Of a stretch of DNA of 64,000 bases, positions 21,375 through 57,646 are shown in pieces (the first letter of the stretch is position 1; the number at the start of each line of letters is the position of its first letter). The notes under the pieces are model-generated. The model searched no databases. It saw only the letters and a list, made by a program, of their open reading frames with translations, and had not been told where the DNA came from. The DNA is from Paenibacillus darwinianus (GTDB lineage Bacteria > Bacillota > Bacilli > Paenibacillales > Paenibacillaceae), in the NCBI RefSeq assembly GCF_000598065.1, contig NZ_KK082115.1:44774-108773 (forward strand), given 5' to 3'. The translations under genes were made by a program, and so were the position numbers.

Positions 21375-21466
21375 TTAAACGAAATTAATCAAAATTATTT
21401 AAAGTTAAACGAAACTATTGACAGTCGATTTAAGCTGCCATATGATAATAACGAAATAAAACGTAA
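21375..21466 (+). promoter_or_regulatory. Promoter of the hexitol operon with repeated DeoR-type operator boxes
   Basis: TTGACA (21418-21423), 17 bases and TATGAT (21441-21446) form a near-consensus sigma-A promoter. Two identical TTAAACGAAA boxes lie upstream (21375 and 21405, 30 bases apart). Related AATAACGAAA (21447) and AAAACGTAA lie downstream of the -10. The centres are spaced by about multiples of ten bases, so they sit on one helix face. A similar TGAAACGAAACGATTC lies before the DeoR gene, which makes DeoR the likely repressor. Confidence 0.7.
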
Positions 21467-21557: not shown

Positions 21558-22520
21558 TTGATCACAACCTTCACGTTAAATGCCGCAATTGACAAGGTCC
21601 ATTATATCGATGATTTTCGGGTAGATAAGGTGAACCGGGTGAGCGGAATCGCGGCCGAGCCCGGAGGCAAAGGCAATAATGTCGCCAAGGTCGCCCGTTT
21701 GCTGGGCTCCGACGTGACGGCGTCGGGTTTTCTCGGCGGTGACAGCGGGCGCTTCGTGCATCAGCAATTGACCGTCAAGGGAGTGGGGAGCAAGCCGGTA
21801 TGGGTGGCCGGCCAAACGCGGGAAGCGCTGAACATCATCGACCGGGTCGGGGGCACGCAAACCGAGATTCTGGAGCCGGGACCTGAGATCGAAGCAGTTG
21901 AATGGGATGGGATGAAAGCGTTAACGCAAACGCTGGCTGCAATGAGCAGGATCGTTTGCTTTTCCGGCAGCCTGCCGCGAGGGGTACCCATTCAAGCCTA
22001 TGCCGACCTGATTCGAATCGCCAAGACGGCGGGTGCGCTGACCATCCTGGATTCCAGCGGGGAAAGCTTGGCCCAAGGGCTCGAAAGCGGTCCCTTTATA
22101 TGCAAGCCGAACCGGGAGGAGCTTGCGCAGTTGACGGGAGGGGGAGTGGATACGCCGGCCGGCGCCATCGGAGCGGCGCGACAGATCATCGCCGATAAGG
22201 GCGTGTCCATGATAGTCGTCTCGCTGGACAAGGACGGATCGGTCGTCGTCACGGCCGATTCGGCCTGGGCGGTCCGCCCGCCGAAGATTGCCGCGGTGAA
22301 CACGGTCGGCTGCGGCGACGCCTTGGTGGCGGGCATTGCCTGTTATCTGGACGAGCTCGGCCGGCAGCCGGATGCAGCGGAGCTGCTTCGGTCCGTCGTG
22401 CTGGGAACCGCGGCCGCCGCCTCGAATGCGATGTATCCGATCGCCGGGCATGTCAATCCCGCCGACGTGCATGAATGGGCCAGGGAAGTGACGGTTACCC
22501 CTTTGGCAAGAAGCAAATAA
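21558..22520 (+). CDS. 1-phosphofructokinase / tagatose-6-phosphate kinase family protein
   Basis: A 320-residue PfkB-family kinase of the FruK/LacC branch, which adds a second phosphate to a ketohexose phosphate. The N-terminus ITTFTLNAAIDK and the PGGKGNNVAKVARLLG glycine motif (residues 37-52) are diagnostic of this branch. The catalytic loop is VNTVGCGDALVAGIA (near 245-259), with the base Asp in GCGD. The start is TTG 21558 after GGAGGGAG. As first gene of the operon with a class II aldolase and a GatD-like dehydrogenase, it most likely makes tagatose-1,6- or fructose-1,6-bisphosphate. Choice between the two is inference. Confidence 0.82.
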   Translation: MITTFTLNAAIDKVHYIDDFRVDKVNRVSGIAAEPGGKGNNVAKVARLLGSDVTASGFLGGDSGRFVHQQLTVKGVGSKPVWVAGQTREALNIIDRVGGTQTEILEPGPEIEAVEWDGMKALTQTLAAMSRIVCFSGSLPRGVPIQAYADLIRIAKTAGALTILDSSGESLAQGLESGPFICKPNREELAQLTGGGVDTPAGAIGAARQIIADKGVSMIVVSLDKDGSVVVTADSAWAVRPPKIAAVNTVGCGDALVAGIACYLDELGRQPDAAELLRSVVLGTAAAASNAMYPIAGHVNPADVHEWAREVTVTPLARSK

Positions 22521-22566
22521 CCAAATAACACAAATAACCAAGTAATCTAAACAGGGGGCAAAAAAA

Positions 22567-22795
22567 GTGAGCAAAGACAAATCCGTTTCCCTCATCCTCC
22601 GCAACCCGGGGGTATCGACATTCTGCCGGCTCGTTCACTTATCCGGATACGCAGGTCCGGGCGATTCGGCTGATCGAATCGGGAGCGTTCGAGCTCGATT
22701 CGATGATCCAGGAGATGACTTTGCAAGAGGTAGAGGCTTTGCTGGAAGGAAAACGCGACGATGACGTCATTAAGGGCGTCGTCAGGCTGCCTTGA
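22567..22795 (+). pseudogene. Remnant of a zinc-dependent (MDR) dehydrogenase
   Basis: A start (GTG 22567, AGGGGG upstream) gives a short N-terminus (MSKDKSVSLILRNPG). After a frame change, the last about 55 residues read as the tail of a medium-chain alcohol dehydrogenase: GSFTYPDTQVRAIRLIESG, then LDSMIQEMTLQEVEALLEG, ending at TGA 22795. Roughly 270 residues of a normal dehydrogenase are missing, so an internal deletion is the simplest explanation. It lies between two kinase genes of the operon, where a functional dehydrogenase would have fitted. Confidence 0.75.
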
Positions 22796-22806
22796 GGGGT
22801 GATCGG

Positions 22807-23763
22807 ATGCATCGGGTATTCACGATCGGTGAGCTGCTGGTCGAAATCATGCGGACGGACAAAAACAGCCCGCTGTCGGAGCCGGCCTTGTTTGCCGGTC
22901 CTTATCCGAGCGGGGCGCCGGCGATTTTCATCGACGCGGCGGCGCGGTGGGGGTTGAAGGCCGGCATCGTCGGCGCCGTAGGGCAGGATGCTTTCGGCCG
23001 CTGTCTCATCGATAGGCTCGAGAAGGACGGGGTGGATTGCGCGCACGTGCATCGCAGCGGCTCGAGAACGACCGGCATGGCGTTCGTCACTTATTACGAT
23101 GACGGCTCGCGCGAGTTTCTTTTTCATATGAAGGATTCCGCCGCCGTCGATATTCCGCGCCCCGCCGGTGCCGGCTATCTGGCCGGCACGAACGTGCTGC
23201 ATATCAGCGGCACCAGCCTGACGATCAACGACGCGATTCGCGAGATTTGCTACGAAGCGGTCCGCTATGTGAAAAGCCGCGGCGGCATCGTCACGTTCGA
23301 TCCGAATTTGCGGCCCGAGCTTGCGGAAGACCGGACCTGGATGGCGTGGTATAAGCCCGTGCTGGAGCAGACGGACATTCTGCTGCCGAGCGGGGAAGAA
23401 CTGGCATGGCTGACCGGCTGTACGAGCGCCGATGAAGCGGCGGCTGAACTGTATAAGAGCGGAATCGGCACAGTCGTCAGGAAGATGGGCGAACAGGGAT
23501 GCATGGTGTATCTCGACGGCGCGTCATCCGCCGCCGCTCCCGGCTACACGGTCGACTGCGTCGATCCGACGGGGGCGGGAGATTGCTTCTGCGCCGGTGT
23601 CGTATACGGTTATTTGCAGGGCTGGTCATGGGAGGAGACGCTGCGCTTCGCCAATGCGGCAGCCGCGCTATCGACCACAAAGCAGGGCCCGATGGAGGGC
23701 ATTCGCGATTTGCCGGCGATCCTGGCTTTCATGGATCAATCAAATTTGGAAAGGCAGGCATAG
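22807..23763 (+). CDS. PfkB family sugar kinase
   Basis: A 318-residue ribokinase-fold kinase, close to 2-keto-3-deoxygluconate/fructokinase-type members. The N-terminus TIGELLVEIMR, the segment GPYPSGAPAIFIDAAARWG, and the C-terminal anion-hole and base motif DPTGAGDCFCAGVVYGYL are present. ATG 22807 is chosen because AGGGGTG lies six bases upstream; an in-frame codon at 22792 is inside the preceding remnant. It lies three bases before the aldolase gene. It is the second PfkB kinase of the operon, so the two kinases may act on different sugars or positions. Substrate unresolved. Confidence 0.85.
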   Translation: MHRVFTIGELLVEIMRTDKNSPLSEPALFAGPYPSGAPAIFIDAAARWGLKAGIVGAVGQDAFGRCLIDRLEKDGVDCAHVHRSGSRTTGMAFVTYYDDGSREFLFHMKDSAAVDIPRPAGAGYLAGTNVLHISGTSLTINDAIREICYEAVRYVKSRGGIVTFDPNLRPELAEDRTWMAWYKPVLEQTDILLPSGEELAWLTGCTSADEAAAELYKSGIGTVVRKMGEQGCMVYLDGASSAAAPGYTVDCVDPTGAGDCFCAGVVYGYLQGWSWEETLRFANAAAALSTTKQGPMEGIRDLPAILAFMDQSNLERQA

Positions 23764-23766
23764 ACC

Positions 23767-24621
23767 ATGTCATTGGTATCATCCACTCCTTTATTGGTAG
23801 AAGCGCGGAAGCAGGGTTACGGGATCGTTGCTTTCAACGTGCATACGCTCGAAATGCTGCAGGCAGTCGTCGATGCGGCGGCGGAGAGCCGTTCCCCGCT
23901 TATTTTGCAGACGACGGTCGGAACCGTCAAGCACCTGGGAATCGACTATATCGTCGGCGCGGCGCAGGCGGCGGCCAAGCAGGCCAGTGTGCCGATCGCA
24001 CTGCATCTCGATCATTGCCAGGATTTCGATCTGATTTTACAATGTATGCGTGCAGGCTACACATCGGTTATGATCGACCAGTCGATGCATCCGTTCGAGC
24101 GCAATGTGGAGATGACCCGCAAGGTCGTCGAGGTCGCACGGGCGCTGAACGTCAACGTGGAGGCGGAGCTCGGCAAGGTCGGCGGCGTGGAAGACGACAT
24201 CCGCGTGGAAGACGGAATGGAGACGCTGGCCGATCCGGAGGAATGCCGCCGCTTCGTCGAATTGACCGGCGTTCCGACGCTGGCCCCGGCGATCGGCACC
24301 GCGCACGGCATTTATAAAGGGGAGCCGAACATTGATTTCGCGCGAATCGAGGAGATTGCGGGCAAAGTCGCCGTGCCGCTCGTGCTGCACGGCGGCTCGG
24401 GCATTCCGGAGGGGCAGGTCAGGCGGTGCGTGTCGCTCGGCATGGCCAAGATGAATGTCGCGACGGAGCTGAAGAACGCCTTCTCACTGTCCTTGCAGGA
24501 GTCGTTCACGGCAAACCCGGCCGAGCTGGACCCGCGGTCGTACATGGCGGCGGCGAAGAAAGTGGTCAAACGGATGGCACTCGAAAAAATGCAGTTGTGC
24601 GGCTGTACGGGCAAAGCTTAA
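23767..24621 (+). CDS. Class II ketose-bisphosphate aldolase (GatY/KbaY/FbaA family)
   Basis: A 284-residue zinc-dependent aldolase that splits tagatose- or fructose-1,6-bisphosphate into dihydroxyacetone phosphate and glyceraldehyde-3-phosphate. Zinc and catalytic motifs are visible: LHLDHCQDFDLI (about 78-89), AELGKVGGVEDD, TAHGIYKGEPNIDF and LVLHGGSGIPEGQVRRC. A short N-terminus LLVEARKQGYGIVAFNVH is typical. It follows the PfkB gene closely and precedes the FGGY kinase. The neighbouring GatD-like enzyme favours tagatose-bisphosphate, which is inference. Confidence 0.9.
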   Translation: MSLVSSTPLLVEARKQGYGIVAFNVHTLEMLQAVVDAAAESRSPLILQTTVGTVKHLGIDYIVGAAQAAAKQASVPIALHLDHCQDFDLILQCMRAGYTSVMIDQSMHPFERNVEMTRKVVEVARALNVNVEAELGKVGGVEDDIRVEDGMETLADPEECRRFVELTGVPTLAPAIGTAHGIYKGEPNIDFARIEEIAGKVAVPLVLHGGSGIPEGQVRRCVSLGMAKMNVATELKNAFSLSLQESFTANPAELDPRSYMAAAKKVVKRMALEKMQLCGCTGKA

Positions 24622-24655
24622 GCGGTCCGGTACAGGGGAGAGGTGGCGCTGTGTC

Positions 24656-26152
24656 ATGACGAATCAATATTTGGCCGGAATCGATATCGGAACGTCCGGC
24701 TGCAAGGTCGCGTTGTTCACGCCTGACGGCGAAATCCTGTTCCAGGGTACGACCCCATACCAAACGCACTATCCTCAGCCTGGCTACGCCGAACAGAATC
24801 CGGAGGATTGGTGGCGGGCCGTATGTAACGGGCTGCGGCATATGCTGCACCGCACCGGCGTCGACCCTAAGCAAATCAAGGGAGTCGGCGTCGACGGGAT
24901 GAGCGGGGCAGCCGTGCCGATGGACGGACAAGGCAGGGCGCTGCGCAATGCGATGATTTGGCTCGATCGGCGGACGGTGAGGCAATGCGAATCGATTACC
25001 GAGCGGATCGGCGCGGAGCAGCTGTTTGCCGTGTCGGGAAACCCGATGTCTCCCTCCTACGTGACGGGGAAAATGCTGTGGATCAAGGAAAATGAGCCTG
25101 ACCTGTATACCCGTACGGCAAAAGTGCTGCAATGCAACAGCTACATCGTCTATCGATTAACCGGCGAATATTCGCAGGACGTCTCGCAGGGAAACGGTTT
25201 TCATGCGTTTGACATCGAAACTGCCGCATGGGATGAGGCGCTGTCCGAGCGGATCGGCGTCGCCCCAGAGTTGCTTCCGCCCGTCTATCGGTGCAGCGAT
25301 ATCGTCGGCGGGATCACGATGGCGGTTGCGACGGAGACCGGACTGACAGCCGGAACGACGGTCGTTGCGGGCGGACTCGACGCCGCGTGCGCCACGCTCG
25401 GCGCGGGGGCGATCCATGTCGGCGAGGTGCAGGAGCAGGGCGGTCAGGCCGGGGGCATGAGCATCGTGATGGACCGTCCGGTCAAAAATGAGAAGCTCAT
25501 TTTGAGCTGCCATGTCGTGCCGGACAGATGGATTCTGCAGGGCGGCACAGTCGGCGGCGGGAGCCTGAATTGGCTGAAAAGAGAGTTCGCGGGAGAAGCG
25601 GGGGACGACTTCTTCGCATTGGCCAACGAGGCGGCCTCCCGGGTCAAGCCGGGCAGCGAGGGGTTGCTTTTTCTGCCGTACATGGCAGGCGAGCGCTCGC
25701 CGATCTGGGACCCGAATGCCAAGGGCGTGTTCCTCGGCTTAAGCTTTGAAAAGACGAAGGGGCACATGATCCGCGCGATCATGGAAGGCTGCGCGATGGC
25801 GCTGCGGCACAATCTGGCGACCGCCGAGGACAGCGGGGTTCCCGTACACACGCTGCACAGCGTCGGCGGGGCCGCCAATAGCGCGCTCTGGACGCAGATC
25901 AAAGCCGATGTGACCGGAAAAGCGTTCAAAATCCCTTCCTCCGATTCCGCTGCGGCGCTCGGGGCGGCCATTCTGGCCGGTATCGGCACCGGCATTTACC
26001 GGGACGCCGAAGACGCGGTTGCTAGAACGGTCCGCATCCAGCGCGAGCAGGCGCCGCTTCCCGGTCACACACGGATTTACAATCAGGCCTTTGACATTTA
26101 TCTGGAAGCCTACAATCGGCTGAAGGATCTATTTCCCAGGATGGGGTGGTGA
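24656..26152 (+). CDS. FGGY family carbohydrate kinase (xylulokinase-like)
   Basis: A 498-residue sugar kinase with the actin-like ATPase fold. The N-terminal phosphate loop GIDIGTSGCKVALF, the segment VDGMSGAAVPMD, the catalytic Asp in VAGGLDAACATLGAGA (near residue 240) and the C-terminal SVGGAANSALWTQIKADV are all present. It starts at ATG 24656 after GGGGAGAGGTGG. The second copy at 37728 is a much closer match to XylB; this one is diverged in the substrate loop. In a operon with a hexitol-phosphate dehydrogenase but no phosphotransferase system, it could phosphorylate the free hexitol or ketohexose. That role is inferred. Confidence 0.85.
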   Translation: MTNQYLAGIDIGTSGCKVALFTPDGEILFQGTTPYQTHYPQPGYAEQNPEDWWRAVCNGLRHMLHRTGVDPKQIKGVGVDGMSGAAVPMDGQGRALRNAMIWLDRRTVRQCESITERIGAEQLFAVSGNPMSPSYVTGKMLWIKENEPDLYTRTAKVLQCNSYIVYRLTGEYSQDVSQGNGFHAFDIETAAWDEALSERIGVAPELLPPVYRCSDIVGGITMAVATETGLTAGTTVVAGGLDAACATLGAGAIHVGEVQEQGGQAGGMSIVMDRPVKNEKLILSCHVVPDRWILQGGTVGGGSLNWLKREFAGEAGDDFFALANEAASRVKPGSEGLLFLPYMAGERSPIWDPNAKGVFLGLSFEKTKGHMIRAIMEGCAMALRHNLATAEDSGVPVHTLHSVGGAANSALWTQIKADVTGKAFKIPSSDSAAALGAAILAGIGTGIYRDAEDAVARTVRIQREQAPLPGHTRIYNQAFDIYLEAYNRLKDLFPRMGW

Positions 26153-26157
26153 GCGGC

Positions 26158-27201
26158 ATGAAAGCGGCCGTATTGTACGCACGGAACGATATCCGGGTTG
26201 AAGAGAAGGCGGTTCCGGCCTTGGAGCCGCATGAAATACTGGTCAAGGTCAAGGCGACGGGTATTTGCGGCTCCGACCTTCCCAGGGTGCTTGGGGACGC
26301 CGCCCATCACTACCCGATCGTATTGGGGCATGAGTTTGCGGGGGTGGTGGAGCGGATCGGCTTCGGCGTTTCCAAGGTGAAGGTGGGCGACCGCGTGGCG
26401 GGAGTGCCGCTCAAGCCTTGCTTTAAATGCCAGGACTGCCTGAGCGGAAATTACGCGCAGTGCAAGTACTACTCGTTCATCGGCTCCCGGGTAGACGGCA
26501 GCTGGGCGGAATATGTGGCGATTCCCGAAATCAACGCGATCCGCTTCGACGATTCGATTCGCTTTGAAGAAGCCGCGTTCGTCGAGCCGTCAGCCGTGGC
26601 GCTCCATGCGCTGCAGCACATTCGGTTTGAAGGCGGAGAGAATGTGGCAGTGCTCGGCGGCGGCAACATCGGACTGCTGGCCCTGCAATGGGCCAAACTA
26701 TTGGGAGCCCGCGAGGTGACCGTGTTCGATATCGACGACGATCGGCTGGCATCCGCGAGCAGGCTGGGCGCCGACCATACGATCAACGCGAAGCATCCGG
26801 ATGTAGAGGAGCAGGTGAAACGCATGACGGACGGCAAAGGGTTTCCGGTCGTGCTGGAAACCGCCGGCTCGGATGTCACAATGCGTCAAAGCTTCGAGCT
26901 GGCCGCGAGCAAGGCGAAGATATGCTTCATCGGAACGCCGGCCGGAGACATCACCTTCTCGCATAAACAATTCGAGCTGATGAACCGCAAGGAGTTCACC
27001 TTAACCGGCTCGTGGATGTCCTACAGCGCACCTTTTCCCGGCCGTGAGTGGGAATTGACGCTGCATTTTCTGAAGCAGGGGAAATTAAATTTCAAAGAGC
27101 TGATTTTCCGGACGTTCCCGCTGGACGAGATTAACGAGGCATTTGATTTATACCGCACGCCAGGCGCCGTCAAAGGCAAGCTCATGCTGCTTCCCGGCTG
27201 A
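26158..27201 (+). CDS. gatD: Zinc-dependent dehydrogenase, galactitol-1-phosphate 5-dehydrogenase-like
   Basis: A 347-residue medium-chain dehydrogenase. Catalytic zinc ligands are in GICGSDLPRV and GHEF, and four structural-zinc cysteines are in PCFKCQDCLSGNYAQC. The nucleotide fold is AVLGGGNIGLLALQWAK. It shares with E. coli GatD the landmarks GSDLPR, PCF-C-C, GSR-DG-AEY and, strikingly, GSWMSYSAPFPGREWE. It should oxidise a hexitol phosphate to tagatose- or fructose-6-phosphate. The start ATG 26158 is preceded by GGGGTGG eight bases upstream; earlier GTG codons overlap the FGGY stop. The gene overlaps nothing but follows the kinase by five bases. Confidence 0.82.
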   Translation: MKAAVLYARNDIRVEEKAVPALEPHEILVKVKATGICGSDLPRVLGDAAHHYPIVLGHEFAGVVERIGFGVSKVKVGDRVAGVPLKPCFKCQDCLSGNYAQCKYYSFIGSRVDGSWAEYVAIPEINAIRFDDSIRFEEAAFVEPSAVALHALQHIRFEGGENVAVLGGGNIGLLALQWAKLLGAREVTVFDIDDDRLASASRLGADHTINAKHPDVEEQVKRMTDGKGFPVVLETAGSDVTMRQSFELAASKAKICFIGTPAGDITFSHKQFELMNRKEFTLTGSWMSYSAPFPGREWELTLHFLKQGKLNFKELIFRTFPLDEINEAFDLYRTPGAVKGKLMLLPG

Positions 27202-27261: not shown

Positions 27262-27306
27262 AGCCGAGCGCAACGTCAGCCCGGATCGTCGAAAGGAATG
27301 CCCCGA

Positions 27307-28095
27307 ATGAATGAGCAGCAGAATCAGCGGAAAATGCGCAGCCTGGAGAGGCATCAATATATTATCGACTATCTCAAAACCCATAAAAGCGTCGACGTCT
27401 CGTTCCTCAGCACCGAACTGTCGGTTTCGGAAGTGACGGTAAGGAAGGATCTGGAGAAGCTCGAGCGGGACAAATGGCTTGTCAGAAGCCACGGCGGGGC
27501 GGTGCTGAACGAGAATCTGTTCGTCGAGCCTTCTTTTATTGAGAAAGAGGACCGGCTGACCAGAGAGAAGTCGGCGATTGCCGCCGAAGCGGCAAAGCTC
27601 GTTCGTGACGGGATGGTTGTGGCGCTGTCCACGGGCACGACGGTCAGCCGATTAGCCGCCCTGCTCAAGGACCGAAGCTCGCTCACGGCCGTAACGAACG
27701 CCCTCAACGTCGCAACGGAACTGATGGGCTATGGCGGAATCGAGCTATTCCTGACAGGCGGGCAGATACGTCCCAATACGTTCGCGTTGATCGGCGAGAC
27801 CGCCGAGAAATCGCTGGACGGGGTGTATACGGAATACGTCTTTTTCGGCGCGAACGGCTTCAGTGCGGACGAAGGCTTGACCACGCCCAGCATGGAGGAA
27901 GCGAGGGTGGTTCGCCGGCTGATCGACAACGCCAAGCATGTCGTCGCACTGGTCGACCACAGCAAATTCGGCAAGGCCGCCTTCTATCGGATCGTGTCTA
28001 CCGAGCGGATCCAGACGCTCATTACGGACGGCAAGGCGCCGCAGGATGAGGTGGACAAGCTTCGTGAGCGCGGCATACAGGTGATAGTAGCTTGA
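27307..28095 (+). CDS. DeoR/GlpR family transcriptional regulator
   Basis: A 262-residue repressor. The N-terminal winged helix (LERHQYIIDYLKTHKSVDVS, then LSVSEVTVRKDLEKLE) is followed by the family hinge LVRSHGGAV. The effector domain has the DeoR sugar-phosphate pocket motifs STGTTVSRLAALL and FFGANGFSADEGLT and the ending VALVDHSKFGKAAF. I choose ATG 27307, nine bases after AAAGGA; ATG 27298 touches that site and is less likely. It closes the hexitol operon but also has its own promoter. It is expected to release DNA on binding a sugar phosphate from the pathway. Confidence 0.9.
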   Translation: MNEQQNQRKMRSLERHQYIIDYLKTHKSVDVSFLSTELSVSEVTVRKDLEKLERDKWLVRSHGGAVLNENLFVEPSFIEKEDRLTREKSAIAAEAAKLVRDGMVVALSTGTTVSRLAALLKDRSSLTAVTNALNVATELMGYGGIELFLTGGQIRPNTFALIGETAEKSLDGVYTEYVFFGANGFSADEGLTTPSMEEARVVRRLIDNAKHVVALVDHSKFGKAAFYRIVSTERIQTLITDGKAPQDEVDKLRERGIQVIVA

Positions 28096-28110
28096 TTGCC
28101 AAGCCGCAAT

Positions 28111-28171
28111 ACCCCTTGATGGGCATCGGGCGACAAAGGCTGCCGGATGACATCAAGGGGTGTTTACTTTA
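28111..28171 (+). terminator. Terminator after deoR
   Basis: Eleven-bp stem ACCCCTTGATG / CATCAAGGGGT with a 29-base loop that can form a smaller inner hairpin, followed by GTTTACTTTAGTT. Confidence 0.7.
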
Positions 28172-28235
28172 GTTGGTAAAATATTTTTGGGTGCGCAAGT
28201 CCGCTTGCAGGCATGCACCGAAGGGGAAAATATAT

Positions 28236-28249
28236 ATAAAACGCTTACA
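28236..28249 (+). promoter_or_regulatory. Catabolite-responsive element (cre) before the polyol importer
   Basis: ATAAAACGCTTACA fits the CcpA consensus TGWAANCGNTNWCA at 12 of 14 positions. It lies in the 260-base AT-rich leader before the binding-protein gene. The rest of 28172-28362 contains AT-rich stretches but no second element I can define. Confidence 0.6.
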
Positions 28250-28362
28250 TTATATAAAAAAATCGTGTATCAAAGTCAAACACCGTTCATTTAAAGCGAT
28301 TTCATCTTGTTTTATCATTCTAGGTGAGGGTAACGCCTTAAAAACTTGATGGGGGAATTGAT

Positions 28363-29799
28363 ATGGTCAAAAGATTCAAAGTTTTAAGCGCAGTACTGCT
28401 GATTATGGCTTTGGTCATTGCAGGCTGCGGTTCTTCAGGCAACAAAGATGCGGGCAACACTCAGCAATCGAGCAATGGGGGAAGCGGCGCTGCGGCAAAT
28501 GAAAGCGCCAACAGTGGCGGCGACAAGAAGATGGAAGGCGTCTCGCTGACCGTTGCAACCGTCAACAATCCGGATATGAAGATCATGCAAAAGCTGACTC
28601 CGGAATTCGAGAAAGAAACGGGCATCCGCATCAATTACGTGGTACTTCCGGAGAACGATCTCCGAAAGCAAGTGACGATGGACGTCTCCTCCGGAGCCGG
28701 CAAATTCGACATCGTAACGATCGGAACGTACGACACGCCGATCTGGGCGAAAAACGGCTGGATCGAAAATCTCGACCAATTTTTGGGCAACATGACGGAC
28801 GAGGAAAAGCAAGCCTATGATCTGGAAGATATTTTCCCGGTTATCCGCGACGCTCTGTCCTACGAGAATAAACTGTACGCCATTCCGTTCAACGCGGAGA
28901 GCAGTCTGTTGTTCTACAACAAGGAGAAGCTGGCGAAGGCCGGCGTTGAGATGCCGAAAAACCCGACTTGGGATCAGGTAGCGGAAGCAGCGAAAAAAGC
29001 GAAGGCCGCTAACAACGAGCCTGGCATCATCATTCGCGGACTTCCCGGCTGGGGCGAGATGCTGGCACCGCTCAACACGATCGTCAACGCGTTTGGCGGC
29101 CGCTGGTATGACGAGAACTGGAACGCGCAGCTGGATAGTCCGGAGACGGTTTCCGCGATCAAGTTCTACGTGGATCTGCTGGCAGCGGCAGGCCAACCGG
29201 GAGCGACGACGACAGGCTTTACCGAGGCGTTGACCCTGATGCAACAAGGCAAAGCGGCTATGTGGTACGATGCGACGACGGCGGCCGGTTTCCTTGAAGA
29301 TCCGAACAGCTCCACCATTTCCGGCAAAGTCGGCTATGCGCTGGCGCCGAGCCAAGCGAAGGACAAAAACGGTTGGCTGTGGTCGTGGGCGCTGGGAATC
29401 GAAGCGGCGAGCAAGAACAAGGAAGCCGCGTTCAAATTCGTTACTTGGGCGACGAGCAAGGAGTACATCAAGCTGGTGGGCGAGTCTGAAGGATGGGTAG
29501 TGGCGCCTGCAGGCACCCGCAAATCGACTTACGAGAACGAGAACTACAAGAAAGCCGCTCCGTTCGCGGACATTACTTTGGAAGCGATGAGCAACGCGGA
29601 TTTCAAGAAGCCAACTCTTAAGCCGGTACCGTATGTCGGCATCCAGTATGTTGCCATTCCGGAGTTCCAGCAATTGGGAACTGAAGTCAGCCAGGATATA
29701 GCCGCTGCGATCGCGGGCAACAAAACCGTAGAGCAAGCGATGAAGGACGCACAGGCGAAAGCCGAGCGAGTGGCTGTAGAGGGCGGTTATAAAAAATAA
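28363..29799 (+). CDS. ABC transporter substrate-binding lipoprotein (sorbitol/mannitol/arabitol type)
   Basis: A 478-residue extracellular receptor with a lipoprotein signal (LLIMALVIAGCGSSG; lipid-modified Cys about residue 22), then a Ser/Asn/Gly-rich linker. The mature part is a SBP_bac_1 fold: LTPEFEKETGIRINYVVLPE, MTDEEKQAYDLEDIFPVI, and VGIQYVAIPEFQQLGTEVSQ, as in polyol-binding SmoE/MtlE proteins. The start is ATG 28363 behind GGGGG. It leads an operon with two permeases and a polyol dehydrogenase, and a cre box lies upstream. Substrate assignment to a polyol rests on resemblance and on the dehydrogenase. Confidence 0.9.
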   Translation: MVKRFKVLSAVLLIMALVIAGCGSSGNKDAGNTQQSSNGGSGAAANESANSGGDKKMEGVSLTVATVNNPDMKIMQKLTPEFEKETGIRINYVVLPENDLRKQVTMDVSSGAGKFDIVTIGTYDTPIWAKNGWIENLDQFLGNMTDEEKQAYDLEDIFPVIRDALSYENKLYAIPFNAESSLLFYNKEKLAKAGVEMPKNPTWDQVAEAAKKAKAANNEPGIIIRGLPGWGEMLAPLNTIVNAFGGRWYDENWNAQLDSPETVSAIKFYVDLLAAAGQPGATTTGFTEALTLMQQGKAAMWYDATTAAGFLEDPNSSTISGKVGYALAPSQAKDKNGWLWSWALGIEAASKNKEAAFKFVTWATSKEYIKLVGESEGWVVAPAGTRKSTYENENYKKAAPFADITLEAMSNADFKKPTLKPVPYVGIQYVAIPEFQQLGTEVSQDIAAAIAGNKTVEQAMKDAQAKAERVAVEGGYKK

Positions 29800-29805
29800 G
29801 GCATA

Positions 29806-29836
29806 GCGGGAGGGGAAGGGGGACTTCCCCTCCCGC
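29806..29836 (+). terminator. Hairpin between binding-protein and permease genes
   Basis: Thirteen-bp perfect stem GCGGGAGGGGAAG / CTTCCCCTCCCGC with a five-base loop and no T-run. It probably protects the binding-protein mRNA and lowers permease expression. Confidence 0.65.
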
Positions 29837-29862
29837 ACTACAAAACAAAAGTAGGGTTGATC

Positions 29863-30798
29863 ATGATGCAAGAATTAACCGAAATCCAGAAGGTGAATAT
29901 GGAGCCTGGCGTGATGGTGAACAAGTCGTTCGCGCCGCCGGTCAGACGGCTGCTGTGGCCAAGTATCATTTTTGTAGCTTTGATCACGCAAATTCCGTTC
30001 CTGATCACGATTTATTACAGCTTCCAAGACTGGAATCTGATGAGACCCGATAAGGGAATCACTTTTGCGGGAATCCGCAATTATTCGAAGATTTTGCTCG
30101 ATGCGGCGTTTTACGAGGTTTTGTGGAACACGTTTGTATTGACGGGCGGGACGCTTGTCATCTGTCTGGTTATGGGACTTTTCTTTTCCTTTCTGATGAA
30201 CCGGGATTTTTTCGGCAAGGGCATCGTCAGGACGATGCTGGTTTCCCCATTCTTTATTATGCCTGCCGTTGCCGGTATCGTGTGGAAAACAATGCTTCTA
30301 AATCCGAGCTTCGGATTTACGGCTTATTTTGCTTCCGTATTTCGATTTCCGCTGATCGATTGGTTGGCGAGTTATCCGCTGACGACCATCATGTTTATGA
30401 TCGCCTGGCAGTGGATTCCGTTCTTCATGCTGATTTTGCTTGCGGGGCTGCAATCCGTACCGGACGACGTTATGGAAGCCGCTCATCTGGACGGGGCAAA
30501 CGCCCTGCAGCGGTTTTACAACGTCATTTTCCCGCATCTTCTGAAATATGTTGAAGTTGCGGTTTTGCTGGGCCTGATCTTCATTATGCAGACCTTCGGC
30601 GAGATTTACGTGACGACAGCCGGAGGACCGGGCTTTGCATCCACCAACCTACCCTACTTCGTTTATCGGGTCGGTTTCCAGGGCTGGGATGTCGGCGGCG
30701 CGTCCGCTGTCGGTGTCATCATTGTCATCATCACCATTGCGTTAATGACAGTGCTGTTCAAATTTTTGCGGAAAACGTTTCAAGGAGAACTGTCATGA
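29863..30798 (+). CDS. Polyol ABC transporter permease (MalF/SmoF type)
   Basis: A 311-residue inner-membrane protein with six membrane segments. The N-terminus carries FLITIYYSFQDWNLMRPDKG, typical of polyol permeases. The EAA loop that contacts the ATPase reads VMEAAHLDGANALQRFYNV (near residues 200-218). ATG 29863 is preceded by GTAGGG; ATG 29866 is equally possible. It overlaps the next permease gene by four bases (ATGA). The matching ATPase is not encoded in the window. Confidence 0.9.
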   Translation: MMQELTEIQKVNMEPGVMVNKSFAPPVRRLLWPSIIFVALITQIPFLITIYYSFQDWNLMRPDKGITFAGIRNYSKILLDAAFYEVLWNTFVLTGGTLVICLVMGLFFSFLMNRDFFGKGIVRTMLVSPFFIMPAVAGIVWKTMLLNPSFGFTAYFASVFRFPLIDWLASYPLTTIMFMIAWQWIPFFMLILLAGLQSVPDDVMEAAHLDGANALQRFYNVIFPHLLKYVEVAVLLGLIFIMQTFGEIYVTTAGGPGFASTNLPYFVYRVGFQGWDVGGASAVGVIIVIITIALMTVLFKFLRKTFQGELS

Positions 30799-31610
30799 AA
30801 AAATTATCAGCTGTCTTGGTGACCTTGTTTACTTATGTGGTGGCCGTCCTTTATTTCTATCCCGTGTTCTGGATGCTGATCACCGGCTTCAAAAAAGAGG
30901 GCGATGCGGTGCAAATGCCGCCTTCCCTGTTCTTCAACCCGACGAAAGAGAACTATCAGCTCATTTGGGACAGCGGCGTCGTCTCGTTTTTCAGCAATTC
31001 CGCAGTCGTGACGCTGACCTCCACCCTGTTCGCCCTGCTGCTGGGGGTACCGGCCGCTTATGTTCTGGCGATGTTCAAGCTGAAAAAAGCGGAGGACATT
31101 CTGTTCTGGTTCATTTCTACCAAATTTCTGCCGGCGGCAGGCATTATTATCCCGATCTACATGCTGTTCAAAGAGCTGCAGCTGCTGGATAGCCTTTGGG
31201 CCCTGATCCTGCTCTACACAGCGATGAATGTGCCCCTTGTAGTATGGATGATGCGCTCTTTCTTCAAAGAAGTGCCGCACGAGCTGTTGGAAGCGTCAAG
31301 GGTGGACGGCGCATCCGATATCCGGACCTTTTTTCAAATTACGCTGCCGCTCGTCAGACCCGGCCTCATTTCCACCGCATTGCTGTCGCTCATCTTTGCC
31401 TGGAACGAATTTTTCCTGGCCGTGAGCTTGACCGCCACCAGCGCGGCGACGATGCCTGTCCATATGGCGTCCTTCATGACGCAGCAGGGGCTTTTCTGGG
31501 CTAAAATGTCTTCGGTCGCTTCGATTGCGGTCGTACCGGCTTTGCTCCTGGGATGGTTTACGCAAAAGCAGCTGGTGCGCGGAATGACGATGGGCGCTGT
31601 AAAAGGTTGA
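30795..31610 (+). CDS. Polyol ABC transporter permease (MalG/SmoG type)
   Basis: A 271-residue second permease with six membrane segments. The EAA loop ELLEASRVDGASDIRTFFQI (about 158-177) and the end FTQKQLVRGMTMGAVKG are typical of MalG-like proteins. It is coupled to the first permease by a four-base overlap. The pair forms the channel for the binding protein at 28363. Confidence 0.92.
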   Translation: MKKLSAVLVTLFTYVVAVLYFYPVFWMLITGFKKEGDAVQMPPSLFFNPTKENYQLIWDSGVVSFFSNSAVVTLTSTLFALLLGVPAAYVLAMFKLKKAEDILFWFISTKFLPAAGIIIPIYMLFKELQLLDSLWALILLYTAMNVPLVVWMMRSFFKEVPHELLEASRVDGASDIRTFFQITLPLVRPGLISTALLSLIFAWNEFFLAVSLTATSAATMPVHMASFMTQQGLFWAKMSSVASIAVVPALLLGWFTQKQLVRGMTMGAVKG

Positions 31611-31640
31611 TTTTATATTAAAAATAGGGAGGAATATGAA

Positions 31641-32663
31641 ATGACGGACAGAACCATGAAAGCGCTCGTGATTGAGGAGCCGCGTAAAGCGGTCGTGAAA
31701 CAGATGCCTTACCCGAAGCCAGGACCGAATGAAGTGACCATCAAGGTGAACAGCGTCGGCATTTGCGGCACGGATGTTCATATTTTTGAAGGCGACTTTA
31801 TTTCCGAGTATCCGATCATTCCGGGACATGAGTTTTCCGGCACAATTGCGGAGCTTGGCGAAGGCGTTACAGGCTGGCGGATCGGGGATCCGGTCAGCGC
31901 GGATCCGTCCTTATTCTGCGGCTCTTGCCAATTCTGTCTGACGAACCGCGGCAATCAATGCGAGAATTGGGGAGCGCTCGGCAATACGACCTCCGGCACG
32001 ATGGCCGAGTATGTCGCTGTTCCGGTCAAAAATGTGGTCAAAATGCCTGAAGGAATGTCCTTCTCGCAGGCCGCGTTCATTGAGCCGCTCGCTTGCGTCG
32101 TGCATGGCATGAACCGGCTGCAGGTGAAGGCGGGGGACCGGGTTATATTGTTCGGGGCGGGCGCCATGGGGCAGCAGCTCGTGCAGGCAATCGCCAGATC
32201 GGGCGCCTCGGAGCTGGTCGTTGTCGACGTATCGCAGCAGAAGCTGGACATAGCTTGCAAGTATGGCGCGACGAAAGGGGTTCTGAGCCGGGATCTGGGC
32301 GAGGAGCTGTCCAAGGAGAAATACCCGTACGGCTTCGACATCGTGGTCGATGTCACAGGCATTCCGGCCGTCATCGAGCAGGCGTTCGACTACATGGGAC
32401 CGACGGCGAAGTTTCTGCAGTTCGGTGTGACGTCGGAGAACGCCAAGGTGCAATTGAGTCCTTTCAAGCTGTATAACAAGGACTGGACGATCATCGGCTC
32501 CATGGCCATCAACAATACGTTTATTCCGGCTTACCATTGGCTGAAGGACGGCAGAATCGAAGTCAATCACCTCGTTTCGAAGCAGATTACGCTCGAGGAA
32601 ACGATCGACTTCTTCAATTCTCCCCGGGATCCGAATCACCTGAAAATACAAATCAAAATCTGA
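31641..32663 (+). CDS. Zinc-dependent polyol dehydrogenase (D-arabitol/sorbitol type)
   Basis: A 340-residue medium-chain dehydrogenase. Catalytic zinc site residues are in GICGTDVHIFEGDF and GHEFSG; structural-zinc cysteines lie in FCGSCQFC..NQC; the nucleotide fold is ILFGAGAMGQQLVQA. It starts at ATG 31641 after GGGAGG, 30 bases behind the second permease, as the last gene of the importer operon. It likely oxidises the imported pentitol or hexitol to a ketose with NAD+. With the xylulokinase at 37728, D-arabitol or xylitol to D-xylulose is a coherent route, but that is inference. Confidence 0.87.
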   Translation: MTDRTMKALVIEEPRKAVVKQMPYPKPGPNEVTIKVNSVGICGTDVHIFEGDFISEYPIIPGHEFSGTIAELGEGVTGWRIGDPVSADPSLFCGSCQFCLTNRGNQCENWGALGNTTSGTMAEYVAVPVKNVVKMPEGMSFSQAAFIEPLACVVHGMNRLQVKAGDRVILFGAGAMGQQLVQAIARSGASELVVVDVSQQKLDIACKYGATKGVLSRDLGEELSKEKYPYGFDIVVDVTGIPAVIEQAFDYMGPTAKFLQFGVTSENAKVQLSPFKLYNKDWTIIGSMAINNTFIPAYHWLKDGRIEVNHLVSKQITLEETIDFFNSPRDPNHLKIQIKI

Positions 32664-32779: not shown

Positions 32780-34153
32780 TTATCCCGATTGGTCCAGCAT
32801 GGTATCGATTTTCGGTTTTAATTCATCCAAGCCCTCCCGGGCGCTCGAATACTCTCCGTTGACGATTTTTCTTAACGTTCTGGCCCATTCGTTCGCCGTA
32901 TCGAAAAAGGCAGGCTGAGGGGTGAACAAGACTGCGGCGTTCTTCAAATGCGAATCCAGCGTTTGCGCAAAACCGTCCGCCCGGCCGATCAGCTTCAGAT
33001 AGTCCTTGTCCTGCAATACCGATTTGCGCGCCGGATGAACGACGTTGGCATTCATCGCGGCCCATTGAATAAATGGTTTCGAGCTGAAGTATTGCATGAA
33101 CAGCCAGGAGGCCTTCTTGTTGTTGGACGCATTGTTCATGCCGAGCCCCCAGGCCCAAAGATTCGATGTGACCGGTTGGTTCAGATCGGACAGCGGAGCC
33201 GGGGTCCAGGCGATATTCCCCGCTTCCTTGGAGTAGCCTTCGACATTCTGGATATACGAGTTAATGTCCGCATCGAAAAGCATGGCGACTTTGCCGGAGC
33301 CCAGGGCGGCGCCCGCCTCGTTCCATGGATTCTGCTGCCAGGAGCTTGCGGAGGTGCATTTGTGGACGAGGTCTACCCATAGCTCGGTGGCCCGGACAGC
33401 CTCGTCCGAGTTGACGGCTGAGCGCAGCTTGCCGTTCTCCGACACTAGGTCTTTGGCGCCGAAGTTTATATAAGTCGTAATGAAAGAAGTCGATAGGCTC
33501 GTCCATTTATCGGAGATCCGCAGCGACAGCCCGTCGATGCCGCTGCCGCTGAGCGCTTCGCACCCGTTCATCAGCTCGGACAGCGTTGAAGGCGGCTTTA
33601 GCGCATACTGCTCGAAAATCCGTTTGTTGTAGGCGAGGGAGTTAAGCTCGAAGCCGATCGGGACTGCCCATTGATAGCCGGTTCCGACCGGATCGCCGGG
33701 CGTCAGATTCCATTTCATCGAATCGAAGACCTTCGGCTGGAAATCCCGGAAGTCATAACCGGGTATGAGCAGGGCGGGATCGGCCAGCATCTCGTCCAGA
33801 CTCTGCATCAGCCGCTTCGAGGCATGCTCCCAAATATAATACGTTCCGGTCATAAACACATCCGGAGTGCCCCGGCGATCGTTGAGCGCCAGATCCAATT
33901 TGTCGATATAATAGTCTTCCGGCGTTATGATATAATTTACTTGGATACCGGTCAAACTCTCGAAATCCCGAAGTTTCTGCACGATTGCCGCCGAATACGG
34001 GTGCTGATTGAGCATGACGTTGATCCGTTGGCCTTCGAAGGCTCGCCAATTGTATTCAGGCTCCGGCTGCGGCCGCGGCTGGCATCCCGCAATAAAAACG
34101 AGTAAACATAAACTGGCGAAAACCGAGAATCTGAGGAAACCTGAGCCGAGCAC
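32780..34153 (-). CDS. Extracellular solute-binding lipoprotein, putative sugar sensor partner
   Basis: A 457-residue SBP_bac_1 protein with a lipoprotein signal (FASLCLLVFIAGCQPRP; Cys about residue 23) and a proline-rich linker. The fold follows NYIITPEDYYIDKLDLALND, then DVFMTGTYYIWEHASKRLM and WAWGLGMNNASNNKKASWLF. I set the start at GTG 34153, about ten bases after GGGAGG; a longer frame to 34252 lacks a ribosome site and would bury the lipoprotein signal. It is divergent from a response regulator and sensor kinase and has no permeases of its own on this strand. It may feed the 29863/30795 permeases or present sugar to the kinase. A cre-like site lies just upstream. Confidence 0.85.
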   Translation of the reverse strand: MLGSGFLRFSVFASLCLLVFIAGCQPRPQPEPEYNWRAFEGQRINVMLNQHPYSAAIVQKLRDFESLTGIQVNYIITPEDYYIDKLDLALNDRRGTPDVFMTGTYYIWEHASKRLMQSLDEMLADPALLIPGYDFRDFQPKVFDSMKWNLTPGDPVGTGYQWAVPIGFELNSLAYNKRIFEQYALKPPSTLSELMNGCEALSGSGIDGLSLRISDKWTSLSTSFITTYINFGAKDLVSENGKLRSAVNSDEAVRATELWVDLVHKCTSASSWQQNPWNEAGAALGSGKVAMLFDADINSYIQNVEGYSKEAGNIAWTPAPLSDLNQPVTSNLWAWGLGMNNASNNKKASWLFMQYFSSKPFIQWAAMNANVVHPARKSVLQDKDYLKLIGRADGFAQTLDSHLKNAAVLFTPQPAFFDTANEWARTLRKIVNGEYSSAREGLDELKPKIDTMLDQSG

Positions 34154-34176
34154 CAAACACAAACCTCCCAAAAAAG

Positions 34177-34207
34177 AGAAATCGCTTCCACGAATCATTT
34201 CATTATA
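34177..34207 (-). promoter_or_regulatory. Candidate promoter -10 and cre box for the minus-strand lipoprotein
   Basis: On the minus strand TATAAT (34202-34207) is followed by TGGAAGCGATTTCT (34177-34190), which fits the CcpA consensus at 12 of 14 positions. A cre just downstream of the promoter is the usual repressing arrangement. No good -35 box is seen. Confidence 0.5.
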
Positions 34208-34269
34208 ACGCACTAGGTTTATTATATATAATATTTCATTTCTCGGCACCATTGGAGGTAACTTTAACG

Positions 34270-35811
34270 ATGAAAGTGTTAATCGTCGACGATGAATTTC
34301 TCGTTCGAATGGGGCTGAAATCGATTATCCCCTGGGAAGAAAAAGGGTTCACCTTGCTGGGCGACGCCAAAAACGGCGCCGAAGCGATTGACATGTTTAA
34401 CGAGACGCAGCCTGATATTCTGTTGACCGACATCTCGATGCCGTTCATGGACGGGCTGGAGCTGATCCGTATTCTAAAAGGGAAGAGCCCATCGTTAAAA
34501 GTCATCATTCTATCCAACTACGACGATTTCAAATATGCGCAAAAGGGCATTCAGCTAGGGGTCAATGAATACATCCTGAAGCATGAAATTTCGCCGGAAA
34601 AGATTTTGGCGGCGCTTGAAAGTGTTACCGGGCCTGCCGGCGGCAGTGAATTCCCGGCCGCCGCGGCCGGCAGGAAAGACTATAGCACGCAGCTGTATCA
34701 CCTGATGGTTAAGGATAATCTTTCCGAACAGGAAAAGGAAGACGTTCTTAATACCTTGAAAAAAGATTTACAAGGCAGCTATTTTACGGTGATCTCCATG
34801 CTTCTGCAATTCAGCGGAACGGAAGCGGATTCACGTGATCTGACGAGAGAAGAAACCATTGAGAAGTTGGCGCTGGAAACGCTGAAGGGCAAGGATTTCC
34901 AGGTTTTTTCCCTCCTGCGAAAAAATGAAGTCCTATTTATTGTGAACACCTCCGAAGCCGGCGGGATAAACGAAAGAATCAAAAAGATGATGCACACCGT
35001 CAAAAATAATACGAAGCAGTTTCTGAACCGGAACCTGTTTATCGGAATCAGCTCAGCCGGCGGCGGTCTCGAGGAGCTGCGCATGCTGTATGAGCAGTCC
35101 AAAACGGCACGGGAACAGAGCTTTTTCTCCAATGATATCATGGTCTGCTCCGAGGAACGGGTCATGGAGCAGGACAACGGCGCGCTCCCGCGCCTCGACA
35201 TGGAGCAGCTGAATAAATTGGTCAAATTGAAGGACACCGGCCGTGTCGAGAAGTTTCTGCTGGATGTGTTCGACATCCTCTACAACCTGCAGAGTGTAGC
35301 CGCCGTGCAGAACATATTCCAACGTTTGATCAAGGATAATGCGGAGCTGTTCGCCGCGAACAACCTTATTCTGAACCAGCAATCTTTCGGCGATTTTTCT
35401 GGCTTTGAGGATGTCCGGCAATATGTCATCGACGTATACAAAAAAAATTGCCTGCATAACGAGCGCAACATTCATTCCGTCCATATTACGAAGAGCATTC
35501 ATTACCTGAAAAAAAACTATAGCGACAATATATCGCTGTCTCAGCTGGCCGATTATCTGCAAATTAACAAAAGCTATTTGAGCCTGCTGTTCAAGCAGGA
35601 AATCGGCGTGAATTTCACCAATTACCTGAACAACATCCGCATCGAGAAAGCGAAGGAGCTGCTGCTCCATTCCAATTACAAGGCCTATGAGATCGCCAAG
35701 CAGATCGGCTTCGACAATCCGTATTATTTCAGCAAGGTGTTCAAGGAAACGACGGGCATGAACTGTCAGGAGTTCAAAAGGACATCCGCATCGCTCGGCC
35801 ATGACAGATAA
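34270..35811 (+). CDS. AraC-type two-component response regulator (YesN family)
   Basis: A 513-residue regulator. The receiver domain (1-120) has the acidic pair in VLIVDDE, phosphoacceptor Asp54 in LLTDISMP, and Lys near 104 in EYILKHE. A long middle region of unknown fold follows, and the C-terminal AraC DNA-binding domain (about 405-505) has two helix-turn-helix units: ISLSQLADYLQINKSYLSLL and YEIAKQIGFDNPYYFSKVFK. ATG 34270 is chosen with GGAGGT ten bases upstream. It is paired with the kinase 30 bases downstream and probably activates the adjacent polyol genes. Confidence 0.93.
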   Translation: MKVLIVDDEFLVRMGLKSIIPWEEKGFTLLGDAKNGAEAIDMFNETQPDILLTDISMPFMDGLELIRILKGKSPSLKVIILSNYDDFKYAQKGIQLGVNEYILKHEISPEKILAALESVTGPAGGSEFPAAAAGRKDYSTQLYHLMVKDNLSEQEKEDVLNTLKKDLQGSYFTVISMLLQFSGTEADSRDLTREETIEKLALETLKGKDFQVFSLLRKNEVLFIVNTSEAGGINERIKKMMHTVKNNTKQFLNRNLFIGISSAGGGLEELRMLYEQSKTAREQSFFSNDIMVCSEERVMEQDNGALPRLDMEQLNKLVKLKDTGRVEKFLLDVFDILYNLQSVAAVQNIFQRLIKDNAELFAANNLILNQQSFGDFSGFEDVRQYVIDVYKKNCLHNERNIHSVHITKSIHYLKKNYSDNISLSQLADYLQINKSYLSLLFKQEIGVNFTNYLNNIRIEKAKELLLHSNYKAYEIAKQIGFDNPYYFSKVFKETTGMNCQEFKRTSASLGHDR

Positions 35812-35840
35812 GCGATCAACCTACAAAAGCAGGTGTTAGC

Positions 35841-39227: not shown

Positions 39228-39289
39228 GCCGTTTCCATGATAGACAAGATCGATCGCCAATCTCATAAAAAGAAGGGAATTGAAAAACT

Positions 39290-40360
39290 ATGTCTACGAA
39301 CCAGCCGACTCAAACGATGAAAGCCGCCATCATGCACAGCACCCGTGAAATTCGGATCGAGGAGCTGCCTGTTCCGCAAATCGGCCCCGACGAGGTATTG
39401 ATTAAGGTCATAGCGGTCGGGATTTGCGGCTCCGATCTGCATTATTATTCGCATGGCAGAATCGGCAAATATGTGGTCGACAAGCCATTCATTCTCGGGC
39501 ACGAGTGCGCGGGAGACGTTGCGGCGGTCGGCGCCGATGTCAGGCGTTTCGCTGTTGGCGACCGGGTGGCGGTGGAGCCCGGCGTTACCTGCGGGCGCTG
39601 CGCCGCATGCAAGGAAGGCCGGTACAATCTTTGTCCGGACGTCGAATTTCTCGCCACCCCGCCGTTTGACGGCGCGTTCGTGCAATATATCAAAATCCGC
39701 GAGGATTTCGTGTTTCCGATTCCGGACAGCCTGTCCTACGAGGAGGCTGCGCTTGTTGAGCCGTTCTCGGTCGGCATCCATGCCGCGGTGCGGACGAAGC
39801 TGCAACCCGGCTCGACGGTAGCGATCATGGGGATGGGGCCTGTCGGCTTGATGGCCGTCGCCGCCGCCAAAGCGTACGGCGCCTCCACCATTATCGCAAC
39901 CGATCTCGAACCGCTGCGGCTCGAGGCGGCCAGGCAGATGGGCGCCACCCACATCATTAACGTGCGCGAACAGGACCCGAACGAGGCAATCAGGACATTC
40001 ACGAACGGTCGCGGAGTCGACGCCGCCTGGGAAACGGCGGGCAGCCCGAAGGCGCTGCAGTCCGCGCTCGGCTCGCTGCGGCGGGGCGGAAAGCTCGCCG
40101 TCGTCGGGCTGCCGGCGCAGGATGAAACCCCGCTGAACGTGCCGCTAATCGCCGATAACGAAGTCGATATATACGGTATTTTCCGGTATGCCAATACGTA
40201 TCCGAAGGGTATCGAGTTCCTGGCCTCCGGCATCGTCGATGCCAGCCGGCTCGTGACCGACAAGTTTGCGCTCGAACAGACCCAGGAAGCGATGGAGCGG
40301 GCGCTTAACCAGAAGAGCGAGTGTCTGAAAATCGTCGTCTATCCCAATGGTTTGATCTGA
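39290..40360 (+). CDS. Zinc-dependent polyol dehydrogenase (sorbitol/xylitol type)
   Basis: A 356-residue medium-chain dehydrogenase close to GutB/sorbitol dehydrogenase. The pattern GICGSDLHYYSHGRIGKYVV and the LGHECAGDV segment hold the catalytic zinc. Structural-zinc cysteines are in CGRCAACKEGRYNLC, and FLATPPFDGAFVQY is a sorbitol-dehydrogenase mark. The nucleotide fold is AIMGMGPVGLMAVAAAK. It starts at ATG 39290, 62 bases after xylB, with AAGAAGGGA upstream, and ends at a strong terminator. It oxidises a polyol at C2; xylitol to D-xylulose fits its partner gene. Confidence 0.88.
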   Translation: MSTNQPTQTMKAAIMHSTREIRIEELPVPQIGPDEVLIKVIAVGICGSDLHYYSHGRIGKYVVDKPFILGHECAGDVAAVGADVRRFAVGDRVAVEPGVTCGRCAACKEGRYNLCPDVEFLATPPFDGAFVQYIKIREDFVFPIPDSLSYEEAALVEPFSVGIHAAVRTKLQPGSTVAIMGMGPVGLMAVAAAKAYGASTIIATDLEPLRLEAARQMGATHIINVREQDPNEAIRTFTNGRGVDAAWETAGSPKALQSALGSLRRGGKLAVVGLPAQDETPLNVPLIADNEVDIYGIFRYANTYPKGIEFLASGIVDASRLVTDKFALEQTQEAMERALNQKSECLKIVVYPNGLI

Positions 40361-53265: not shown

Positions 53266-53267
53266 TC

Positions 53268-57620: not shown

Positions 57621-57646
57621 CGACTACTACTTGGAGGTTAGTGCAA

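Follow-up and report, generated by a model that had tools for sequence, protein, structure and literature searches.

How can a dehydrogenase of the galactitol 1-phosphate type be supplied with its substrate by an operon that has no phosphotransferase system (PTS)? This question is raised by a 64,000-nucleotide stretch of Paenibacillus darwinianus DNA (the window; all coordinates given here are positions in it), in which five intact and tightly packed genes, all on the + strand at 21558-27201, encode two PfkB kinases, a class II aldolase, a FGGY kinase and a relative of E. coli GatD, a characterized enzyme that acts on galactitol 1-phosphate. The answer favored here, with a probability of about 0.66, is that the window holds a PTS-independent catabolic operon for galactitol, or for a closely related hexitol, in which a kinase acts first. 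Briefly, an ATP-binding cassette (ABC) importer would take up the free hexitol, the FGGY kinase would use ATP to convert galactitol to L-galactitol 1-phosphate, and GatD would oxidize the latter to D-tagatose 6-phosphate, from which a LacC-type kinase (PfkB1) would form tagatose 1,6-bisphosphate, to be split by the aldolase into two triose phosphates. The other PfkB kinase (PfkB2), perhaps with a second medium-chain dehydrogenase/reductase (MDR2), would supply the same pool from free D-tagatose.

A probable galactitol-type operon without a phosphotransferase system

Families were assigned by Pfam and NCBIfam model scans, and the five genes are the following:

21558-22520, + strand: PfkB1, of the 1-PFK/LacC subfamily (TIGR03168), proposed tagatose-6-phosphate kinase, with homologues that recur in FGGY/GatD loci
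22792-23763, + strand: PfkB2, tagatose-kinase-like (best NCBIfam model NF049991), proposed D-tagatose 6-kinase serving as a side entry
23767-24621, + strand: class II ketose-bisphosphate aldolase of the GatY/KbaY/FBA type (TIGR00167)
24656-26152, + strand: FGGY kinase (PF00370/PF02782; own clade, support 100/100), proposed ATP-dependent galactitol (hexitol) kinase
26146-27201, + strand: GatD, a galactitol-1-phosphate 5-dehydrogenase-like zinc MDR (GatD clade, support 100/99; best PDB match 4a2c)

The FGGY and GatD-like genes overlap by 7 bp. A previous inspection of the DNA, made from the letters only (the sequence-only reading), had described a FGGY gene preceding gatD, two different PfkB kinases and a class II aldolase, with no PTS gene; all five genes proved to be present and of the families named, and no PTS gene was found in the operon, nor any match to EIIC-GAT in the genome bin, which is 75% complete.

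The FGGY kinase belongs to a clade of its own

A scan of genome contigs with the FGGY sequence was supplemented by searches of 297 genomes from the family and 398 from the phylum. The contig scan revealed a sharp step, with 13 loci at 47-78% identity and the next matches at 40% or less, and a comparison set was made of 30 clade proteins besides that of the window. Their hosts are Paenibacillus, Cohnella, Aneurinibacillus, Bhargavaea, Clostridia, Halanaerobiales and one Synergistales bin, thus covering Bacillota and Synergistota. A tree was built from the 31 clade proteins and 37 FGGY kinases from outside the clade, among them GlpK, XylB, AraB and LyxK of E. coli, and it recovered the former as a single group (support 100/100).

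Five specificity positions have been defined in FGGY kinases, corresponding to Arg83, Glu84, Tyr135, Asp245 and Phe270 of GlpK (Zhang et al. 2011, PMC3245297). Alignment to the E. coli references showed that the clade carries S-W-(A/S/T)-D-G at these positions, with G replacing W at the second one in the Paenibacillus/Cohnella branch, and G replacing S at the first one in two members; the residues of the window protein are S83, G84, S134, D242 and G267. The equivalent signature is MHGDV in E. coli XylB and in most of the relatives at 34-38% identity, and REYDF in GlpK, and that of the window is unlike those of GlpK, XylB, AraB and LyxK. The catalytic Asp is retained throughout the clade, while the substrate pocket differs.

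These residues bear on an alternative in which the FGGY protein is a xylulokinase-like pentulose or pentitol kinase, and the PfkB and aldolase genes serve some other sugar. The window protein does pass the xylulokinase model TIGR01312, albeit marginally (383.4 bits, for a cut-off of 380.25). However, it departs from xylulokinases at four of the five specificity positions, so this call is not trustworthy and a xylulokinase identity was rejected in spite of the pass. In addition, the FGGY/GatD pair sits with enzymes of tagatose 6-phosphate or of the bisphosphate in at least 16 loci, and a separate gene of the window, at 37728, is xylulokinase-like and of the MHGD type. A pentitol pathway is, accordingly, the least credible of the readings considered and quite improbable, and the signature indicates that the clade enzyme is probably not a pentulose kinase.

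The dehydrogenase and the order of the first two steps

Among solved structures, the best relative of the window dehydrogenase is E. coli GatD (4a2c, 272 bits; the next structure scored 157), to which it is about 40% identical, and when E. coli GatD was compared with Bacillota proteins, nearly all of the best matches were, in turn, FGGY-linked. A GatD clade (support 100/99) was recovered that unites the FGGY-linked proteins, E. coli GatD, a galactitol-PTS-linked relative (L221, adjoining an EIIC-GAT that scores over the cut-off) and the proteins of two further loci, L159 and L160, described below. Human sorbitol dehydrogenase, included as a reference, and the two other dehydrogenases of the window fell outside. 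E. coli GatD was nested within the FGGY-linked set, although its exact placement is not firm (80/83), and bootstrap support for a grouping of all the FGGY-linked proteins was only 15%.

E. coli GatD and its FGGY-linked relatives have several features in common that are not found in free-polyol dehydrogenases, namely P43-R44, S111-R112, R278 and a loop of the form W287...YS-P-PG-EW. Each of R44, S111-R112, R278 and the GSWMxYSxPxPGxEW loop is shared with E. coli GatD by at least 94% of 32 FGGY-linked proteins; in the window protein, these features include the conserved Arg47 (equivalent to E. coli R44) and the loop GSWMSYSAPFPGREW. The PTS-linked L221 largely retains these residues, R44 included, whereas MDR2 (31641-32663) has His-Ile where GatD has Pro-Arg. 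R44 aligns with Tyr50 of human sorbitol dehydrogenase, a residue that lines the substrate pocket, and we infer that R44 binds the phosphate. Two other MDRs located near EIIC-GAT have Arg or Lys at R44 or at the preceding position (R43 in L235, K44 in L237), but this is also true of a few non-PTS MDRs (for instance L159_7, with 'CGSDLRI'), and for this reason only R44 within the GatD clade was used as evidence. Judging from the tree and from these residues, the window dehydrogenase is a true GatD-clade enzyme, and it is predicted to oxidize galactitol 1-phosphate.

The order of the kinase and the dehydrogenase, like the identity of the substrate, has to be deduced from such data, and the same genes and the same product are equally compatible with a pathway in which oxidation comes first. 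In that case, the GatD-like enzyme or MDR2 would oxidize the free hexitol, the FGGY kinase would phosphorylate the resulting ketohexose (for instance, D-tagatose) to its 6-phosphate, and PfkB1 and the aldolase would follow. There is precedent for it, since the catabolism of galactitol via free tagatose is known in rhizobia, as stated in the title of a work cited in PMC10433430. Against it, nearly every FGGY-linked GatD retains the residues that are associated with the galactitol-1-phosphate enzyme, and PfkB2, being tagatose-kinase-like, already covers the conversion of tagatose to tagatose 6-phosphate, so that a tagatose-specific FGGY kinase would be redundant in the window. Because of the GatD identity, the conserved arginines and the separate PfkB2, the kinase-first order is favored, at about two in three, and oxidation of the free hexitol is regarded as a less probable, if serious, competitor.

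A number of observations weigh against the kinase-first galactitol route. Most characterized FGGY kinases use ketoses (PMC3245297), which is what a dehydrogenase-first pathway would provide, and the literature search retrieved no assayed enzyme of this FGGY clade. The proposed phosphate binding by R44 derives from an alignment, and the window GatD scored 319.7 bits with the equivalog model NF007642, for a cut-off of 550, even though this was its best-scoring model. For PfkB1 and the aldolase, model scores do not separate tagatose from fructose esters. Finally, AtlD of B. methanolicus rescued growth on arabitol without its PTS (PMC6685057); AtlD may thus use free arabitol, and other MDRs whose predicted substrate is a phosphorylated polyol may likewise take the unphosphorylated form, in keeping with the dehydrogenase-first order.

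The kinase and the dehydrogenase recur as a pair

A scan with a strict pattern of the GatD loop found the motif in 28 of 30 loci, with GatD encoded on the strand of the clade FGGY gene. GatD usually lies directly downstream of the kinase, but it is directly upstream in L013, and upstream with one gene in between in L120 and L121; the intervening gene (7767-8936 in L120, 7850-9019 in L121) encodes an iron-containing alcohol dehydrogenase. L014 was missed by the pattern, yet a GatD at 55% identity adjoins its FGGY gene, while L128, with no motif, is cut at the contig end. Hence, all 29 testable clade FGGY loci carry GatD in the same operon. For comparison, among 79 other FGGY kinases, the motif was present in the same locus in six, four of which are explained only by a clade FGGY also being there; the remaining two are L159 and L160.

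The trees of both proteins share their main groups: L127, L129 and L130, for instance, form a separate group, and in each tree the Synergistales member falls within clostridial groups. The shared groupings suggest that the two genes were inherited as a unit and, to judge from the trees, they appear to travel together.

In L159 (5260-9394) and L160 (73-3278), a separate AraB-like FGGY kinase (S-S-E-D-V) is accompanied by a GatD-like enzyme with the GatD arginine and loop, and the pair adjoins a ribose-type ABC importer. This is possibly an independent pairing of a kinase with GatD, for another polyol.

Caproiciproducens galactitolivorans, named for its use of galactitol, was considered as a bearer of the pair and rejected, as its FGGY match (L068) has an ordinary MHGDV signature and its best GatD-like match is only 36% identical (176 bits).

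Uptake of the substrate

The sequence-only reading was confined to the five genes described above, and overlooked a regulator, an ABC importer and a second dehydrogenase that follow at 27298-32663. These, together with a candidate promoter, are listed below:

21418-21446, + strand: promoter-like site TTGACA-17-TATGAT, just upstream of PfkB1 (11 of 12 matches in a consensus scan), candidate
27298-28095, + strand: DeoR-family regulator, AgaR-like (NF040755 AgaR, 227 bits for a cut-off of 260)
28363-29799, + strand: ABC solute-binding protein, proposed polyol binder (PF01547, 205 bits)
29857-30798, + strand: ABC permease 1 (PF00528; syntenic in L012 and L132)
30795-31610, + strand: ABC permease 2 (PF00528; syntenic in L012 and L132)
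31641-32663, + strand: MDR2, second zinc dehydrogenase, proposed free-polyol dehydrogenase (PF08240/PF00107; outside the GatD clade)

A consensus match such as that of the promoter-like site is not by itself evidence of function. No RNA element was found in an Rfam scan of the window.

Relatives of the solute-binding protein lie beside FGGY/GatD in L012 (67% identical) and L132 (84%). The window operon has no ATPase gene; as a common sugar ATPase is usually shared in Gram-positive bacteria, such a subunit is assumed to serve this importer. Where importers were seen adjoining the pair in other loci, they were MalEFG-type or ribose-type ABC systems. The possibility of a PTS hidden elsewhere in the genome was explored and rejected: EIIC-GAT was detected in four of 20 genomes bearing the pair, and never beside it. 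With ABC importers next to the pair and no EIIC-GAT there, the substrate would be expected to arrive unphosphorylated.

Two exits from a probable common product

PfkB1 scores well above the cut-off of TIGR03168, the 1-PFK subfamily model (284.5 versus 216.4 bits), but below those of the LacC equivalog (196 versus 409.55 bits) and of the FruK equivalog. The aldolase is over the cut-off for TIGR00167 (312 bits) and just under it for the GatY-type subfamily models (355-358 bits). As for PfkB2, the tagatose kinase model NF049991 is by far its best, although with 312.5 bits for a cut-off of 420, and the protein is retained only in the near relatives L132 and L133.

Two exits from the FGGY/GatD pair could be recognized. 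The first, also present in the window, is a LacC-type PfkB kinase, found in nine clade loci and in each accompanied by an aldolase gene; a few further loci have an aldolase without PfkB. The second is a GatZ/KbaZ-family protein, found in seven clade loci; two of these proteins were scored (526 and 590 bits, cut-off 569). L120 and L121 also carry a weak class II aldolase relative (31-32%), and several clade loci have neither exit within the stretch examined. E. coli GatZ and KbaZ interconvert fructose 6-phosphate and tagatose 6-phosphate (PMC11907403). Both exits begin, therefore, at tagatose 6-phosphate, which supports this ester as the likely common product of the FGGY and GatD enzymes.

A kinase, dehydrogenase, second kinase and aldolase chain had been proposed in the sequence-only reading. 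It survives as the best-supported interpretation, by virtue of the non-xylulokinase FGGY signature, the GatD-clade residues and the tagatose-6-phosphate neighbors, with the order of its first two steps probable and with PfkB2 falling outside the linear route.

The same chemistry would also accommodate another hexitol, given that D-tagatose reduced at C2 yields either galactitol or D-altritol. As a sub-case of the favored route, with overlapping confidence, the substrate might be a close isomer such as D-altritol, or the reduction product of an aldose. An aldo-keto reductase does sit beside the pair in 11 clostridial-type loci, suggesting that there the hexitol may be made from an aldose. Yet E. 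coli GatD uses galactitol 1-phosphate and nothing specific points to altritol, and a hexitol other than galactitol is considered unlikely.

The 11 reductase loci are L013, L016, L018, L020, L117, L118 and L122-L126. In several of them, a FucU/RbsD-type mutarotase accompanies the reductase, and L016 and L018 also adjoin L-fucose genes; the window has no reductase. D- and L-galactose are both reduced to galactitol, and, as a lead, the hexitol of these loci could derive from one of these sugars or from another aldose. A broader and quite tentative proposal is that the clade constitutes an undescribed group of ATP-dependent galactitol (hexitol) kinases, forming with GatD a mobile two-gene module across Bacillota and Synergistota, within which the PTS-linked E. 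coli GatD is nested; in the clostridial loci, a reductive-oxidative path from an aldose (e.g., galactose) through galactitol to tagatose 6-phosphate would then bypass the Leloir pathway.

Neighboring clusters

Further downstream, positions 32780-37583 hold a divergent solute-binding lipoprotein and a pair of response regulator and sensor kinase that looks like YesN/YesM and is perhaps a sensor for the polyol region. At 37728-40360, a second FGGY kinase with a near-xylulokinase signature (MHGDQ) precedes a sorbitol/xylitol-type dehydrogenase, and the two apparently belong to a dehydrogenase-first pathway of the ordinary kind, for a pentitol or xylulose, near the GatD operon. In the segment 42990-49477, genes for a further sensor kinase, a solute-binding protein and an AraC-type response regulator accompany those of two ABC permeases; in Paenibacillus alkaliterrae (L009), relatives of this kinase and binding protein come directly after the FGGY/GatD operon. 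Finally, a BtpA-like protein, a ribokinase-type PfkB and a full ribose-type ABC importer at 52411-58699 make up another uptake cluster, for a sugar or nucleoside.

Comparison with known systems

A kinase of galactitol, of hexitols or of polyols, and any mention of galactitol together with FGGY, were sought in the literature with no relevant result, and a search on dulcitol phenotypes of the named host species yielded work on another Cohnella species only. No FGGY kinase joined to GatD and standing in for a PTS emerged from the literature searched, whereas kinase-first use of erythritol, GatD, GatY, LacC and GatZ are already known. If the proposal is true, it adds a new substrate class to a large FGGY group that automated models label xylulokinase, and predicts a galactitol kinase, an activity not found in that literature. 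It would likewise show that ABC uptake and an ATP-dependent kinase can take over from a PTS with the downstream enzymes unchanged, and would furnish an annotation rule: a FGGY signature S-W/G-x-D-G adjoining GatD.

Sinorhizobium and Agrobacterium, both of which catabolize galactitol via free tagatose, resemble the window and its related loci in non-PTS ABC uptake, a tagatose kinase and, in some loci, a GatZ-type epimerase exit, but they differ in that the free polyol is oxidized first and the ketose kinase is of the PfkB type. In erythritol catabolism, the FGGY erythritol kinase EryA is followed by a phosphate dehydrogenase, so that, as proposed here, a cytoplasmic FGGY polyol kinase comes first and the polyol phosphate is oxidized next. 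EryA has been grouped with the rhamnulokinase lineage (PMC3245297), and its route departs from that of the window in the kinase group, the dehydrogenase family and the use of a C4, not a C6, polyol. B. methanolicus AtlABCD (PMC6685057) has, as is proposed for the window, a dehydrogenase acting on a polyol phosphate; there, phosphorylation is by a PTS, the substrate is a pentitol and no FGGY kinase was reported.

The closest system is gatYZABCDR of E. coli, which has in common with the window a GatD-clade dehydrogenase, a GatY-type aldolase, a DeoR-family regulator and the proposed route through galactitol 1-phosphate, tagatose 6-phosphate and tagatose 1,6-bisphosphate. The window differs in lacking a PTS enzyme II, whose uptake and phosphorylation functions would be replaced by the FGGY kinase and the ABC importer, and in having a dedicated PfkB kinase, proposed to act on tagatose 6-phosphate, in the operon and no GatZ in the window. 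Most likely, it represents a PTS-free FGGY/GatD variant of the E. coli route that recurs in many Gram-positive bacteria.

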